DNA from: JBHIER01 sp046760705 [NCBI: bacterium]
GTDB lineage: Bacteria; JBHIER01; G020348925
Assembly: GCA_046760705.1 (NCBI GenBank)
Contig: JBHIER010000231.1
Coordinates: forward strand, 1 to 5,919
Reading direction: 5' to 3'
Length of the DNA stretch: 5,919 bases
Part shown: positions 1 to 5,919 of the stretch, piece by piece
How the letters are laid out: the number at the start of each line of letters is the position of its first letter
Position numbering within the stretch: the first letter of the stretch is position 1
Notes under the pieces: generated by a model
Database searches by the model: none
Told to the model about the DNA's origin: nothing
Seen by the model: the letters and a program-made list of their open reading frames with translations, nothing else
Made by a program: the position numbers and the translations under genes

Positions 1-2190
1 CTTTCCTCCACCCAGGGTGAGGGTCGGCTTGACGAAGTGGGCAGTGGCTACCGAACAGTTGGGCTTCTCGCCGAGCATGGAAGCCTGGGTTTGGGGGCTG
101 GTTCCGCTGGCAGCGCCGGTCCACTCTTTGAATGCCCATGCACCGGCGGCGGTGGCGCTCACATCCACCTGACTACCGCATCCGCCCTCCGTATACTCAG
201 GAGTGGCTGTGCATCCTTCCTCCGCAGCCTCAGGTGGGCTCACTTCTGTCCCGAGGCAGCATACTCCCGGCGGCCTCTTTCGATGCCTCTGAATGTTCCC
301 TCCGTCTGTTTCGCGGCCACTGTAAAGATACCTGGTGCCAGGTTCCGGACTGTAGGAGGTGAGCTGAGAGGCATCACCGGGGCACTGGGGGCCTGGGGTG
401 AGGCCGGTAGAATAGGTGTAGACGCCGCTGGATGTACTGATAGCAGCGAAAACGGTGCCATCGTGCACCTCTATGTCCCCAATCTCCCCTGAACTGCTAT
501 CGGTCTGGGCTACTCTCGAAGGGCTTGAGGAGTCGGAGACATCGAATGCCTCGATGGAGAACTCGAAATCAGGCCAGGAGCCAGTGACGCTCCCCACAAA
601 GGCGGTGTCTGCCCAGACCCAAACGCAGGTGGGCTCGGCCCAAGTCTCAATCGAACTGAAGGCTTGCGGAGCCGCCGGGTTGGAGACATCAATGATGTGA
701 AGCCCCTGGTCATCGACAACATAGGCAATGGTGCTGTCTCCTTGGACGAATACGTCGGCACCCCGATCAACTGGGAACTCACCAGCCTCGATGGGGTTTG
801 AGGGGGTGGAGACATCGATTATCTGCAGCTTATTGTTGAAAAGGAGGTAAGCGTAATTGCTCAGGACGAATAGGCTCCCCCAACCTCCTTCCGGGTAAAC
901 ACCTGCCTGGGTCAGATTACCGGGATCAGAGACATCGATGATATAGAGGCTGTCTGAAGTGAGAGCATAGAGATAGTTACCCTGAACAAACAAGCTACGA
1001 GCGGACCACTGGGCATAGGAACCCACTGGCGTGAGGTTCTCCGGGTCGGCCAGGCTATAGACCCAGAGCCTTTCGAAGGAGCTGAGGTAAAGATGGTCGG
1101 CGGAGGCATAGAGGTTCCCAACAGATTCCGGCACCTCATATTGCTCGGTTACACTGGGATTGACCGGGTCAGAGAGGTCAATCACCTGGAAGCCGACGTC
1201 GCCACTACAGGCGACATAAGCGCGGGGATAGATCAGGTGGATGGCCCCTGCTATCACATCCGGCAGCACCTTCACCTCGGTGGGATTTTCCGGGTCAGAG
1301 GCATCAAGTACCATCAGCCCATCCCACATTCCGGCGACGTAAACATAGGTGGAACCACCATACGCGGCAACGTCGTAGGCGTCCACAGTAGAGGAGCCTC
1401 TTACCGTGGGGTTGGCCGGATCGGAGAGGTCAACGATCTGAAGTCCTTTCCATGCATTGGCCACATAGGCGTAATCTCCCAGGACGAAGACCCGGTTAGA
1501 CCAATCTACTTGACAGGAGCCGATTGCGGTGGGATTTGTTGGTTCGGTGATGTCTATCACCCATAGCTTGCCTTCCGCCCAGGATACAAATTCCAAGGCA
1601 TAGGCGCGGTCGCTCAGGACGAAAACATCCCTGGCGTCCATCGCCAGGGAGCCAACCTCAGTCGGGGAGGAAGGCACGGAGACATCAACCACTTTGAGAC
1701 CCTCTAAGCCAGCCGCCACATAGGCATAGTCCCCCGAAACATGAACACCCGAGGTGTTCCCCTCTGGTGTGGCATGAGAGGCAACGATGGAGGGGTTGAG
1801 CGGGTCGGATATATCTACGATCTGGAGCCCCGACTCACCATCTGCCACATAGGCGTGGTTGCCGCTGATGAAAATATCAGGCGGCCCCGCCGGCAGGTCC
1901 AGGGAAGCCACTTGCTCGGGCTGCGCGCCGGAGATGTCGAGGACTGAGAGAGAGGGACCTGTCCCAAGGTAAGCGTAGTCCCCCTGAACGGCCACACAAC
2001 CGTGCCAGCCGCCGAAATGGGCTATCTGCTCGATTGTCTCATCCTGGGCGGAGACCATTTCAGCAAATCCAAACAGGAGACCGACGAGCAGTATGCCAAT
2101 CGTTGCAAACCTCCCGAAGGTTCCAAACCTTCGGGAGGTTGTTCTGAAAGACGCTGTCAGTCTCGGCGAGTTACTGATTCTGATATACAT
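1..2190 (-). CDS. Secreted LVIVD-repeat beta-propeller protein with C-terminal InlB-like repeat (3' end beyond window)
   Basis: An open frame of exactly 730 codons runs from ATG at 2190 to the window edge with no stop, so the C terminus is missing. Residues 1-48 look like an export signal: a basic N region, the hydrophobic core IGILLVGLLFGF (31-42), and a likely cleavage site VSA|Q at 48/49. Twelve copies of a motif like GLQIVDISDPLNPS start near residues 81, 121, 164, 208, 249, 291, 333, 374, 414, 454, 496 and 545, about 42 residues apart. Many are preceded by 'GDYAYVA'-type strands. This is the LVIVD repeat, a family known to build beta-propellers. Residues 655-720 (AFKEWTGAASG, then VATAHFV) resemble a divergent InlB B-repeat. 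Residues 610-650 are Arg-rich and match nothing I recognise. The likely role is extracellular binding or adhesion (inference); no catalytic motif is seen. A type IX sorting domain may lie beyond the edge. A 33-bp palindrome occupies codons 17-28. Confidence 0.9.
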   Translation of the reverse strand, partial: MYIRISNSPRLTASFRTTSRRFGTFGRFATIGILLVGLLFGFAEMVSAQDETIEQIAHFGGWHGCVAVQGDYAYLGTGPSLSVLDISGAQPEQVASLDLPAGPPDIFISGNHAYVADGESGLQIVDISDPLNPSIVASHATPEGNTSGVHVSGDYAYVAAGLEGLKVVDVSVPSSPTEVGSLAMDARDVFVLSDRAYALEFVSWAEGKLWVIDITEPTNPTAIGSCQVDWSNRVFVLGDYAYVANAWKGLQIVDLSDPANPTVRGSSTVDAYDVAAYGGSTYVYVAGMWDGLMVLDASDPENPTEVKVLPDVIAGAIHLIYPRAYVACSGDVGFQVIDLSDPVNPSVTEQYEVPESVGNLYASADHLYLSSFERLWVYSLADPENLTPVGSYAQWSARSLFVQGNYLYALTSDSLYIIDVSDPGNLTQAGVYPEGGWGSLFVLSNYAYLLFNNKLQIIDVSTPSNPIEAGEFPVDRGADVFVQGDSTIAYVVDDQGLHIIDVSNPAAPQAFSSIETWAEPTCVWVWADTAFVGSVTGSWPDFEFSIEAFDVSDSSSPSRVAQTDSSSGEIGDIEVHDGTVFAAISTSSGVYTYSTGLTPGPQCPGDASQLTSYSPEPGTRYLYSGRETDGGNIQRHRKRPPGVCCLGTEVSPPEAAEEGCTATPEYTEGGCGSQVDVSATAAGAWAFKEWTGAASGTSPQTQASMLGEKPNCSVATAHFVKPTLTLGGGK
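2108..2140. repeat. 33-bp perfect palindrome inside the signal-peptide coding region
   Basis: AACCTCCCGAAGGTT (2108-2122) and its exact reverse complement (2126-2140) flank the 3-base loop CCA. The element is 33 bp, a multiple of three, so it keeps the frame and encodes roughly residues 17-28 (TSRRFGTFGRF) of the LVIVD-repeat protein. Degenerate relatives lie at 2768-2800 and 3624-3652. It resembles the intragenic palindromic elements described in Rickettsia in behaviour, but I claim no sequence kinship with them. In mRNA it would form a very stable hairpin about 50 bases after the start codon. Confidence 0.88.
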
Positions 2191-2828: not shown

Positions 2829-2967
2829 TCAAGTCATACGTTTTTTCGCGATCTTGAAAAGTTTTTCCGCCACCGAGAGAACAAACTCTGCATCTTCTCG
2901 ACTGATTTGAGCCCGGGGTTTATATCTGGCTTTTGCCCGCAGGTCGAGTGCTTTGTTGAAGGTTCTT
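2829..2967 (-). pseudogene. Detached C-terminal part of the MNT-HEPN protein, in the +1 frame
   Basis: From about 2967 down to the TGA at 2829-2831 this frame encodes RTFNKALDLRAKARYKP, then a charged helix ending KIAKKRMT. That is the expected tail of a HEPN domain following 'GQFGKIF...DVG'. It has no start codon or ribosome binding site of its own that suits a separate protein: an in-frame TTG at 3014 exists, but the residues it would add are out-of-frame translation of the upstream domain. Dropping one A from the run at 2966-2968 joins it to the upstream frame and gives a protein of about 240 residues. Confidence 0.75.
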
Positions 2968-3552
2968 TCCCACATCCCTCTCCACAAGCTCAGATAATAC
3001 AAAAATCTTACCAAACTGACCTACCACCCCTCCATGGGAAGAGGCCAGGGTGCTGCCCATGCTAAGAATAAGAGCTTTGGTGAGGAGTTCGGCAGCATTG
3101 TAAGCCGTATCGATAGCCAGTCGAAACTTATTTTCTTGTAAAGCATCCTTGGCGTACCCTAAGTATTCAGAGGACAGCTCCAAATGATCCCGAAAATCAA
3201 GAGCCCACTCAGTAGAAGTCGCTTGAGTAAATAGAGCTCGGCCGTGTTCAACTGCCTCCCAGAGAAATGGCGAATGACCAATGTCTTTTTTAAACTCTTT
3301 CTCAGACATAAGCACAGTCTCTATGGTCTCACCATATTCGCAAGATATGGCAAAGCTAATCTCAGCCACCAGATCTAATACCTCACTCTCCTTTGTGTCT
3401 TTAAATACAACTAACACATCGATGTCGCTATCCGGAGCGCTTGTTCCTTTTGCTGTACTTCCAAAGTGGTAGACTGCCACAAGCTTTTCTTTAAGCCTCT
3501 TCTTTAATCGAGAGATAAACTTCTCTAAAGCTATCGTCCTACTTTTTTCCAT
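2920..3552 (-). CDS. Nucleotidyltransferase (MNT)-HEPN fusion protein, frameshifted near its end
   Basis: The 210-residue frame has a pol-beta-type nucleotidyltransferase domain at residues 1-105. It shows the G31-S32 motif and the metal-binding D43-x-D45 in GSTAKGTSAPDSDIDVLVV, with E78 a possible third carboxylate. A HEPN-like helical domain follows from about 120, with YNAAELLTKAL and the later SHGGVVGQFGKIF. After DVG (193-195) the frame runs into unrelated sequence and stops at 2920, while the natural tail continues in another frame to 2829. The fault lies in GGGAAAGAA at 2963-2971. Such proteins are cytoplasmic, and relatives act as NMP-transferases in MntA/HepT-type toxin-antitoxin pairs. 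Here both domains are on one chain and the HEPN RNase motif R-x4-6-H is absent, so I do not call it a toxin. The ATG at 3552 is backed by AAGGAG eight bases upstream. The gene appears AT-richer than its neighbours. Confidence 0.85.
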   Translation of the reverse strand: MEKSRTIALEKFISRLKKRLKEKLVAVYHFGSTAKGTSAPDSDIDVLVVFKDTKESEVLDLVAEISFAISCEYGETIETVLMSEKEFKKDIGHSPFLWEAVEHGRALFTQATSTEWALDFRDHLELSSEYLGYAKDALQENKFRLAIDTAYNAAELLTKALILSMGSTLASSHGGVVGQFGKIFVLSELVERDVGKNLQQSTRPAGKSQI

Positions 3553-3560
3553 CAGTCGGT

Positions 3561-3566
3561 CTCCTT
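3561..3566 (-). promoter_or_regulatory. Ribosome binding site of the MNT-HEPN gene
   Basis: AAGGAG on the minus strand, eight bases upstream of the ATG at 3552. It is a strong match and fixes the start. Confidence 0.75.
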
Positions 3567-3586
3567 ATCGCACTGATATCCCTTTC

Positions 3587-3616
3587 AATATACTGCATAA
3601 AAGATCAAGATCGAAA
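3587..3616 (-). promoter_or_regulatory. Weak candidate sigma-70 promoter for the MNT-HEPN gene
   Basis: On the minus strand TATATT (3592-3587) could serve as a -10 box, with TTTCGA (3616-3611) as a poor -35 at 18-base spacing. Transcription would then start near 3580 and give a leader of about 30 bases that includes the ribosome binding site. The -35 match is weak. Confidence 0.25.
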
Positions 3617-3619
3617 TGG

Positions 3620-3646
3620 AAAAAATCCGGCAGGTTCGAAACCTGC
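3620..3646 (-). terminator. Possible intrinsic terminator downstream of the LRR/sorting-domain gene
   Basis: Read on the minus strand, GCAGGTT-TCG-AACCTGC forms a perfect 7-bp hairpin, followed by CGGA and six T residues (3625-3620). The 4-base gap before the T run is longer than ideal. It coincides with a member of the palindrome family, so the element may double as a terminator between the LRR gene and the MNT-HEPN gene. Confidence 0.35.
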
Positions 3647-3652
3647 AAAAGA
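3624..3652. repeat. Third, diverged member of the palindrome family
   Basis: It is centred on the hairpin GCAGGTT (3630-3636) / AACCTGC (3640-3646) with loop CGA. On the minus strand the core AGGTTT-GAACCT and the following GGA match the palindrome at 2108-2140 at equivalent positions, but the outer stem has diverged. It overlaps dispersed repeat copy B. Confidence 0.45.
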
Positions 3653-3690
3653 TTGCCGAAGGTTGCAGTGTATTGTTGGATTTCGTCTCT
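3637..3690. repeat. Dispersed repeat copy B (partner at 2211-2263)
   Basis: About 72% identical by eye to 2211-2263 over about 54 positions in the same orientation. Here it lies in the spacer between the LRR/sorting-domain gene and the MNT-HEPN gene, and it extends into the palindrome at 3624-3652. Confidence 0.5.
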
Positions 3691-3736
3691 CAACCCAGCC
3701 TATTTTTTGCTCCTGTCGAGCTACATGCCCCACCAC

Positions 3737-3795
3737 GTAGGGGCGGACGTCCCTGTCCGCCCTCACAAAGGGCCCACACTGAGTTGGGCCCCTAC
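3737..3795. repeat. Palindromic repeat folding into a perfect three-way junction
   Basis: GTAG (3737-3740) pairs with CTAC (3792-3795) and encloses two adjacent perfect hairpins. The first is GGGCGGAC/GTCCGCCC (3741-3748 with 3755-3762, loop GTCCCT). The second is GGGCCCA/TGGGCCC (3770-3776 with 3785-3791, loop of 8). A 7-base linker, TCACAAA, separates the two arms. 'GTAGGGGCGGAC...CCCCTAC' resembles dispersed repeats I recall from several bacterial phyla (recalled, not searched). It lies 63 bases past the stop codon of the LRR/sorting-domain gene and has no T run. It is not a tRNA. Confidence 0.7.
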
Positions 3796-3857
3796 AATTG
3801 CAGCCCGCCTCGATTGTGACCCCGATTTCCATACCACCTACGGTTTCTATACCGCGC

Positions 3858-5798
3858 TTACTTGACCAATAACATCCGCTTCGTATCGACAAATTCACCC
3901 GCCCGGAGACGATAGAAATAGATCCCGCTGGAGACTTCGTCTCCTCTCTCATTTCTTCCATCCCACGTTACCATATAGTAACCCGGCTCCTTCTTCCCAC
4001 CCACCAGGGTCCGAACTTCCTGCCCGAGAAGATTGTAGATCTTCAGGGTGGTGTGGACGGGTATCAACCGCTCTCCGCTCTTCGCTCTCCGCTCTTCGCT
4101 GGAAAGGGTGTAGTTAATGGTGGTGCTGGGGTTAAACGGATTGGGATGATTCTGAGAGAGCCCATACTCTGTGGGAAGGGGGAGCCGGTTCTCAATACCC
4201 GATGACAATCGACACACCGCTGACAATTGAGACACCGCCAGATCAACCTGCAGCACCCGCCCGTCTCCAACCCATACGGGTTTAGTGCTGTGAGCCCTCT
4301 GGCCATTGATATAAAAAGTCAACCTATCACCCACCTTCGCCCCCTCATAAACCCCCACGGTGGTCTCATCATCGCCATAGACCGGCACCAGGCCGTACCA
4401 ACCCCTGCTATGGGTAATCATCCCACCGCATTGAACCCCATCAGGATCGTACACCGTGACCACATCGCCTACCCTCACCGGCCCACCAGCCACCTCTGCC
4501 CGACCATAAAAATCCACCCACCTTGAGGTGGGAATAAAAGTGAAGGTAGAATCACTAACCGCCCCGGCCTTGGCCAAACCCGACGGACAGTCACCGGCCC
4601 CACAGGGATAGACCAGTGTCGTCTCGGCAGCATCCGGGTATAGCTTCACCCAATAACCGAAGGTGTTCATCATACATCTCAGAGAACTCAAGAGAGCCGG
4701 CAGGGTGGGATCGAAGGTCAACCCACCGTTGCTGCCCTGGCCGTGGGCCAACCCATTGAGGTCAAACCCACGCACCACCCGATAGGAGCCCGTCCAGTCC
4801 TGGGAGTTGATGTTCTCACCCCCCAACAGAGAGTCCAGAGCCGTGGCCACCTGATTGGACTCCTCCGGGAGATAACCCACTAAGTTCCACCCCCGATTCA
4901 AGGCCACAGGCTCATCACACCGACACCGATTCCCGCAGACCACTAAGGTGCACGCCTGGCTCACCTTCACCCAATAGCCGTACCGACAGCCCATCCATTT
5001 CAAGGAACTGAAGGCCGGTGGCAGACCCGGATCGTAGGTCAAGCCTCCATTGGCCCCCTGGCCGTGGTCGAGCCCGAGAAGATCAAACCCCCGGACGACA
5101 ATGAGATGGTCTAAAATTGTCGCTACGACTGAATCAACCAATGAATCAGGAGAGGCAAGGTTAAAAGAGATCAGGTTCCAGCCCTGATTCAAGGGGACGT
5201 TCACACACATTGTTTCACAGGCATCGCCGATGCCGTCGTTGTCGCTGTCCTCCTGACCCGGGTTATACACATCAGGACAGTTGTCCTGCTCATCGGTGAT
5301 TCCATCGCCATCCGAATCCTTCAGGGTCTTGGCCCACACCTCCTGGCTGAAGTCACTGACAAGATCGTTCTGCTGGTCGCCATGCGGTGGTGTGTGCGTG
5401 GTCACAACGAAGTAGTAGTCGGTATCACCCACCAGACCGGAGACGGTCAGGCCGGTGGCTGTTTTGGCGGGGGTCTCTTCGGTGGTGTTGGGATACGGTC
5501 CGCCTGGTGTTGTGCCGTAGTGCACGGTGTAACCACCGCCATCGCCGGTGTAAAGAATTGGGTCCCAGGTGATGTCAATACTGAAGGCAGTGGCATTGGT
5601 GGCGGCAACGTTGGTCGGGGGCACGGTCTGGGTCTGGGCCCAGTCAGGGTCTTTTGAGTTCAGAAAGGCAATCACCGCCGGGTCATCGCTGGAGAGCATA
5701 TTGTACCCGATATCAGTCCAATAGAGGTTCGTAAGATTTGTTATGGACGACGGGATGGTGCCGGAGAGCTGGTTGTTCATAAGGTGCAACCACTCCAA
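3858..5798 (-). CDS. Multidomain surface protein (LRR, FnIII, thrombospondin-3, duplicated module, type IX-like sorting domain), 5' end interrupted
   Basis: 646 codons are counted from TTG at 5798, but the frame stays open to 5858, just inside a TAG at 5859-5861. The extra codons continue the leucine-rich repeat (GPIPTQIGNLTALEWLHL), so TTG is not a true start. There is no signal peptide, so the 5' part is lost. Domains by residue: LRR 1-35; fibronectin III about 60-157; calcium-binding thrombospondin type 3 repeat 161-194 (DSDGDGITDEQDNCPD, DSDNDGIGDAC); two copies of a GWNLIS...GYWVK module (201-290, 297-396); a beta-rich domain 420-525; and a FlgD-Ig/type IX-like sorting domain 547-646 (HPNPFNPSTTI, LLGQEVRTL, SGIYFYRL). 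The family is exported and anchored or released at the outer membrane. Residues 566-577 are encoded by a short tandem repeat inserted in the sorting domain. Without its N terminus it is probably not exported. Confidence 0.85.
   Translation of the reverse strand: MEWLHLMNNQLSGTIPSSITNLTNLYWTDIGYNMLSSDDPAVIAFLNSKDPDWAQTQTVPPTNVAATNATAFSIDITWDPILYTGDGGGYTVHYGTTPGGPYPNTTEETPAKTATGLTVSGLVGDTDYYFVVTTHTPPHGDQQNDLVSDFSQEVWAKTLKDSDGDGITDEQDNCPDVYNPGQEDSDNDGIGDACETMCVNVPLNQGWNLISFNLASPDSLVDSVVATILDHLIVVRGFDLLGLDHGQGANGGLTYDPGLPPAFSSLKWMGCRYGYWVKVSQACTLVVCGNRCRCDEPVALNRGWNLVGYLPEESNQVATALDSLLGGENINSQDWTGSYRVVRGFDLNGLAHGQGSNGGLTFDPTLPALLSSLRCMMNTFGYWVKLYPDAAETTLVYPCGAGDCPSGLAKAGAVSDSTFTFIPTSRWVDFYGRAEVAGGPVRVGDVVTVYDPDGVQCGGMITHSRGWYGLVPVYGDDETTVGVYEGAKVGDRLTFYINGQRAHSTKPVWVGDGRVLQVDLAVSQLSAVCRLSSGIENRLPLPTEYGLSQNHPNPFNPSTTINYTLSSEERRAKSGERLIPVHTTLKIYNLLGQEVRTLVGGKKEPGYYMVTWDGRNERGDEVSSGIYFYRLRAGEFVDTKRMLLVK
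4071..4100. repeat. 14-bp (7-bp) tandem repeat within the sorting-domain coding sequence
   Basis: CTCTCCGCTCTTCG occurs twice exactly (4071-4084, 4085-4098), followed by CT. Each unit is itself two degenerate 7-mers, CTCT(C/T)CG. On the coding strand it yields SSEERRAKSGER between INYTL and TLKIYN, where family members normally have a short turn. The unit is not a multiple of three, so gain or loss of a single 14-bp unit would shift the frame ahead of the C terminus. Confidence 0.85.
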
Positions 5799-5844
5799 TG
5801 CTGTCAGGTTGCCGATCTGGGTCGGGATGGGTCCGGCTCCGGAA

Positions 5845-5919
5845 CATTTATAAAATCCCTACGAATGAACTCCATTCACAGGCTAAAGCCTGTGCCACAG
5901 GTGGCTCGGACTTTAGTCC
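5845..5919. repeat. Chain of small hairpins that interrupts the LRR gene (element continues beyond window)
   Basis: Four perfect-stem hairpins are packed end to end: GAATG/CATTC (5863-5877), CACAGGCT/AGCCTGTG (5877-5894), GCCAC/GTGGC (5894-5905) and GGACT/AGTCC (5908-5919). An AT-rich near-palindrome ATTTATAAAAT precedes them. Reading along the minus strand, a TAG at 5861-5859 ends any upstream frame before LRR coding sequence resumes. Subterminal hairpins of this kind are typical of elements moved by HUH single-strand transposases (IS200/IS605, REP-associated). That assignment is inference, since no transposase is visible here. Confidence 0.6.

Follow-up and report, generated by a model that had tools for sequence, protein, structure and literature searches.

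REPs are palindromes of 20-40 bp, some of them perfect with a 3-nt loop, which occur as singles and as inverted dimers, the latter able to form a longer hairpin, and which lie mostly between genes and sometimes within them (PMC3733652, PMC3116915, PMC8266576). Opitutus terrae and Rickettsia conorii are the richest in genic copies, which are described from many bacteria, Thauera, Thioalkalivibrio and Xanthomonas among them (PMC3733652). The RPEs of Rickettsia are palindromes that occur between genes and also, in frame, within protein genes of unrelated kinds (PMC2229807, PMC10969869), and two of these families, RPE-4 and RPE-6, have been classed as CGTC REPs (PMC3733652). Reports from Neisseria and enterobacteria add in-frame gene fusions of other small repeats (PMC2229807). 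The first-pass annotation of the DNA analysed here, which held that coding palindromes are known mainly from Rickettsia, therefore overstated the case, as both the genic REPs of taxa other than Rickettsia and these in-frame repeats show. The main text of PMC3733652 never uses the word 'phage', and among the titles and abstract openings listed from the open-licence literature, where an absence carries little weight, there was no paper on REPs inside phage genes or on the sequence family described below.

The whole stretch of DNA that we analysed, hereafter the window, is 5,919 nt of contig JBHIER010000231.1 and carries a 33-bp palindrome at positions 2108-2140. Its two arms (2108-2122 and 2126-2140) are 15 bp each, 100% complementary, and enclose a 3-nt loop. 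Dinucleotide shuffling of the window (500 rounds) gave perfect arms of at most 12 bp for loops of 3-8 nt, a length reached once, against the 15 bp observed, so that the perfect stem and 3-base loop originally read from the letters stand on both complementarity and the shuffle test. As single-stranded DNA the element folds with -17 kcal/mol (z -5.87). It is itself an inverted doublet of a 15-nt near-palindrome, AACCTCCCGAAGGTT, then 3 nt, then AACCTTCGGGAGGTT; the monomer is of the type AACCTCC-C/G-GGAGGTT, with 7-bp half palindromes of which 6 of the 7 pairs form in the window copy.

The element lies within a gene on the reverse strand (1-2190) for an LVIVD-repeat protein, which has a signal-peptide-like N-terminus and seven LVIVD stretches and runs off the window at position 1. 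The longest form of this ORF opens at 2307; we chose the ATG at 2190 as its start because a Shine-Dalgarno-like AAGGAAGG (2204-2197, reverse strand) stands 6 nt ahead of it. From this start the first base of the element falls 50 nt into the ORF, at codon position 3, and the element touches residues 17-28, for a gain of 11 codons. Without it, about 37 residues are left up to a VSA cut point, which we read by eye in the predicted signal peptide. The ORF coordinates thus uphold the original proposal of a frame-preserving insert of 11 codons in the n-region of a signal peptide that would otherwise be of about this length. A scan of bacterial genome contigs found no orthologue of the LVIVD protein; the sole locus that it returned (Acidobacteria, 46 residues matched) was set aside as a relative, since the genome concerned has no LVIVD match.

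A REP at a predicted N-terminus may in fact precede the true start codon (PMC3733652), a caution that bears directly on this gene. The hydrophobic part of the predicted signal peptide lies downstream of the element, and on reading the sequence we saw no in-frame ATG, GTG or TTG within the element or between it and the hydrophobic part; the element would therefore be translated if the protein is secreted via this signal. The hydrophobic core after the element and AAGGAAGG before the ATG both argue that the element is probably translated. An effect of the hairpin on translation initiation, which had also been suggested, is not indicated, the hairpin lying 50 nt past the ATG. The predicted fold of the leader leaves 7 of the 8 bases of AAGGAAGG free; the last G, together with two bases of the AUG, is part of a local 5-bp hairpin in which the element is uninvolved.

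Related sequences occur elsewhere in the window. An imperfect doublet at 2768-2800, identical at 26 of 33 positions (best in 500 shuffles, 23), lies between genes, as does a degenerate and weak copy at 3622-3654 (23/33, a score that one shuffle in 500 also attained). Upstream of the LVIVD start, positions 2213-2227 hold a half copy, a single monomer with three mismatches. All three are outside genes as called here, although the half copy would be coding if translation of the LVIVD gene started at 2307. The window therefore holds one coding and three non-coding copies, and the statement that related copies lie outside genes holds for all three, with the reservation that one is weak and one is a half copy. 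Two alike 20-nt intergenic stretches (2244-2263 and 3671-3690, by eye) lie near element copies; the repeated unit may extend beyond 33 bp.

Several other features of the window were noted in passing. The intergenic stretch 2658-2750 contains adjacent 15-nt units (2665-2694) and a CCTGAATCAAGTTCAGG palindrome, presumably of a type present in many bacterial genomes, and another intergenic stretch, 3739-3796, contains the palindrome GGGCGGACGTCCCTGTCCGCCC at 3741-3762 and looks MITE-like by eye. The third gene (3858-5798) encodes a FlgD_ig / fn3 protein; the region of its start (5840-5919) runs into a palindrome at 5877-5894 (CACAGGCTAAAGCCTGTG), near which a leucine-rich upstream part appears by eye to be broken. 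An NTP_transf_2 and HEPN gene (2829-3552) appears frameshifted within its HEPN part, since Pfam HEPN aligns only over positions 2-55 of 117 and HEPN-like sequence goes on in the ORF at 2829-3014.

An exact search of IMG/VR with a 27-nt core of the element (24 fixed bases) returned one stretch only, L002 of phage contig IMGVR_UViG_3300033141_001870. The copy there (L002:6978-7010) shares 32 of 33 bases with the window element, the sole difference being one loop base, so that the arms agree at 30/30 bases. It lies in frame in a 333-residue ORF (6459-7460) with a family 2 glycosyltransferase domain (PF00535, E 2e-15). Three further ORFs of this stretch were scanned, of which one matches tape-measure families and two have no PHROG match; the contig as a whole (G298) carries one true doublet in 43.5 kb. 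The only relative of the glycosyltransferase found in IMG/VR was itself, and tblastn in named phages gave no match. Seven of eight matching PDB sequences cover parts of residues 10-141 and one covers 255-322, while 9 of 199 Acidobacteriota genomes match parts of residues 6-152, with an alignment near the element that is not trustworthy; the homologues being too distant, the junctions of the element in this protein are not fixed. The next glycosyltransferase ORF contains a second, different perfect palindrome (L002:7783-7813, 15-bp arms, 1-nt loop), of which a search with 26 fixed bases found no other occurrence in IMG/VR.

One generic and one looser pattern scan of IMG/VR added two further stretches, here G299 and L023. 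G299 (IMGVR_UViG_3300028837_002052; 22,018 bp) is a phage contig on which all four scanned ORFs match phage families (tape-measure, major tail, major head and portal). A variant of the element at 3738-3770 lies in frame in its tail-assembly chaperone (ORF 3508-3945; phrog_344, E 7.9e-12). Homologues of this protein were collected from IMG/VR (43, being 44 loci minus the query) and from four named phages (five records, two of them one phage), giving 47 rows, 39 of them distinct, in which both flanks of the loop concerned are aligned. From F to VDE this loop counts 38 residues in G299 and 22-33 (median 29) in the 39 distinct homologues; without the 11 residues of the element it would count 27. 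As a point against reading the extra length as the insert, the G299 protein is also two residues longer than most before the loop and four to five longer after it.

The same contig is rich in the repeat, with 23 monomers at up to three mismatches against 0.85 in shuffles, mostly in inverted doublets whose spacers are 3 or 6-8 nt. Among those with a 3-nt spacer, three of four have the C-centred unit first, the fourth (9208) having a T centre, and among those with 6-8 nt, four of five have the G-centred unit first. Nineteen of the 23 monomers were grouped into 10 sites, nine of them outside an ORF set that covers 81% of the contig (binomial P 2.5e-6, with both the ORFs and the sites our own choice). 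This count excludes four weaker single hits, two outside ORFs (12761 and 14477) and two inside one ORF (17802 and 17990); with them, 11 of 14 are non-coding. The eight non-coding doublets measure 33, 33, 33, 36, 36, 37, 38 and 38 bp and all coding copies measure 33 bp, which are too few doublets to prove selection for a length of 3n among the coding ones.

The reading as an in-frame insert thus extends from the window to genes of two uncultured phages. The first base of the element falls at codon position 3 in the window, 1 in L002 and 2 in G299. The encoded peptides, which include TSRRFGTFGR, NLPKVANLREV and PPGGSKPPGG, are mutually unrelated, and each of the three coding 33-mers is stop-free in all six frames. 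Because three codon phases yield unrelated peptides, it is the DNA rather than the peptide that is conserved.

Other occurrences are sparser. In L023, two doublets each follow a stop codon at a distance of 5 nt (stops read by eye), and the genes before them end in a stretch which we take to be PEP-CTERM-like. A scan of IMG/VR with a core pattern returned four stretches, L002, L087, L088 and L089; the core lies between ORFs in L087 and L089, and that of L087 resembles a terminator of an AT-rich phage. In L088 a 21-bp core (7718-7738), which may be due to chance, lies inside a phage ORF of 1407 residues, in a region without a match among named phages. The core with the opposite unit order and a 3-nt spacer was found in no stretch of IMG/VR, and a search of named phages and plasmids gave no match to either 33-mer at E 0.01. 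Acidobacteriota were considered as a home for the element and set aside, as 0 of 297 genomes carry the arm pattern and 0 of 297 a looser pattern with one mismatch.

Compared with the described systems, the element shares with REPs its inverted doublets and the presence of copies both between and within genes, and differs in also lying inside phage genes. REPs are further marked by a high and mostly extragenic copy number in the host genome; the counts to set beside this are nine non-coding sites of ten in G299 and three non-coding copies of four in the window. For REPs a stem of 5-13 bp and a loop of 2-20 are given (PMC3733652); the monomer fits this range, whereas the doublet, with its stem of 15 and loop of 3, is slightly over. 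The two orientations seen in G299, with spacers of 3 and of 6-8 nt, resemble the head-to-head and tail-to-tail dimers of REPs, but the partners here are 3-8 nt apart, whereas most of the described spacers are 20-100 bp and some 1-5 bp (PMC3733652). Two inverted REPs that form one hairpin make a REPIN, and doublets with either class of spacer have this arrangement. Unlike in GTAG/CGTC REPs, whose two superfamilies are defined by this tag, there is no tag at a fixed place: in 2 of 15 elements such a tetranucleotide stands no more than 10 nt beyond the foot, at a distance that they do not share, and two more of the 15 contain GTAG internally, while there is none in the window copy or in either coding copy of the phages. 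We call the element REP-like and do not file it as a GTAG/CGTC REP, because the tag is not at a fixed place.

Like RPEs, the element stands in frame in unrelated genes, three here, as well as between genes, but the RPEs described are about 105-150 bp as against 33 bp (PMC2229807, PMC10969869). One review, moreover, assigns each RPE a conserved peptide (PMC10969869), whereas the coding copies here use three different phases. We infer that the proteins of the window (LVIVD repeats; FlgD_ig) are not rickettsial-looking. With MITEs such as ERIC and Correia/NEMIS the element has in common that these are non-autonomous repeats at times fused in frame to genes (PMC2229807); MITEs, however, are 70-300 bp with terminal inverted repeats (PMC3733652). 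A target-site duplication as in MITEs was not found at the 33-bp doublets, none of nine having a flanking duplication of at least 2 bp, whereas a perfect direct repeat of 5 bp borders both 38-bp doublets of G299 (L025; 3960-3997 and 6381-6418), which is expected by chance at about 0.2% of positions. The intergenic stem-loops of T4-type phages, known as mobile regulatory cassettes, likewise lie between phage genes but are promoter cassettes.

A different explanation is that the hairpin controls expression in cis, through attenuation, RNA stability or pairing of GGAGG with CCTCC, which resemble a Shine-Dalgarno sequence and its complement, so that the LVIVD copy would be a 5' regulatory hairpin. 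At seven of the nine non-coding sites of G299, 14-41 nt separate the end of the site from the earliest start codon that the next gene could use (ATG, GTG or TTG, by our own calls), the LVIVD copy lies only 50 nt past its start, and the RNA of the LVIVD leader folds better than all 200 shuffles (z -3.58). This fold strength is, however, due to the element, since a leader cut inside it folds no better than shuffles (z +1.59). Positions also vary, from 5 nt after stops in L023 to the inside of ORFs in L002 and G299, and neither an intrinsic terminator (a GC-rich hairpin followed by a T run) in 1900-2500 nor an Rfam match anywhere in the window was found. We consider such a control role unlikely.

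It is far less probable still that selection acted on the peptide, with the palindrome as a by-product: the insert does add basic residues to the n-region of the signal peptide, within the 11 that it contributes, but near-identical DNA is translated into a different, unrelated peptide in each of the three genes and sits between genes as well, and the three codon phases largely refute this reading. Template switching during replication makes perfect local hairpins and could have produced one in place, yet an event in place would not put identical 15-bp arms in the unrelated L002, and plain chance is opposed by the shuffles, none of which passes an arm of 12; together these two origins have the slightest likelihood of all.

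We instead favour, with a probability of roughly three in four, a small REP-like and probably non-autonomous mobile doublet that is tolerated in the n-region of the LVIVD signal peptide. A 15-nt near-palindrome present twice, inverted, around a 3-nt spacer would allow one strand to fold into a 15-bp hairpin, and the most likely mover would be a hairpin-recognising single-strand transposase acting in trans, of the RAYT/TnpA-REP or IS200/IS605 type. Against this reading stand the lack of a Y1_Tnp (PF01797) match in all three viral records, which may be fragments, the missing tag at a fixed place, the single true doublet of G298 and the negative searches of Acidobacteriota and of named phages and plasmids. 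Doublets moved in this manner would mostly settle between genes; a 33-bp doublet landing in a reading frame would add exactly 11 codons and, being stop-free in six frames, would not end the protein. Copies would then persist where the protein tolerates 11 further residues, here in the n-region of a secretion signal, and the LVIVD copy would be a late insertion. A broader proposal, to which we give only tentative credence, is that the element belongs to a REPIN-like family that lacks a tag, is open in six frames and passes between uncultured bacteria and their phages, the latter being carriers across lineages.

Coding REPs are already known from several bacteria; what is new here is the sequence family and its placement in phage genes, and protein-coding palindromes are thereby extended to both. 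With one DNA sequence in three codon phases, selection on the DNA can be told apart from selection for the peptide more clearly than in a family read in a single phase. If phages do carry such elements, this would account for their passage from one lineage to another, and should the tag-less family exist as proposed, bacteria and phages alike would receive ready-made inserts of 11 residues in whichever frame the element lands.
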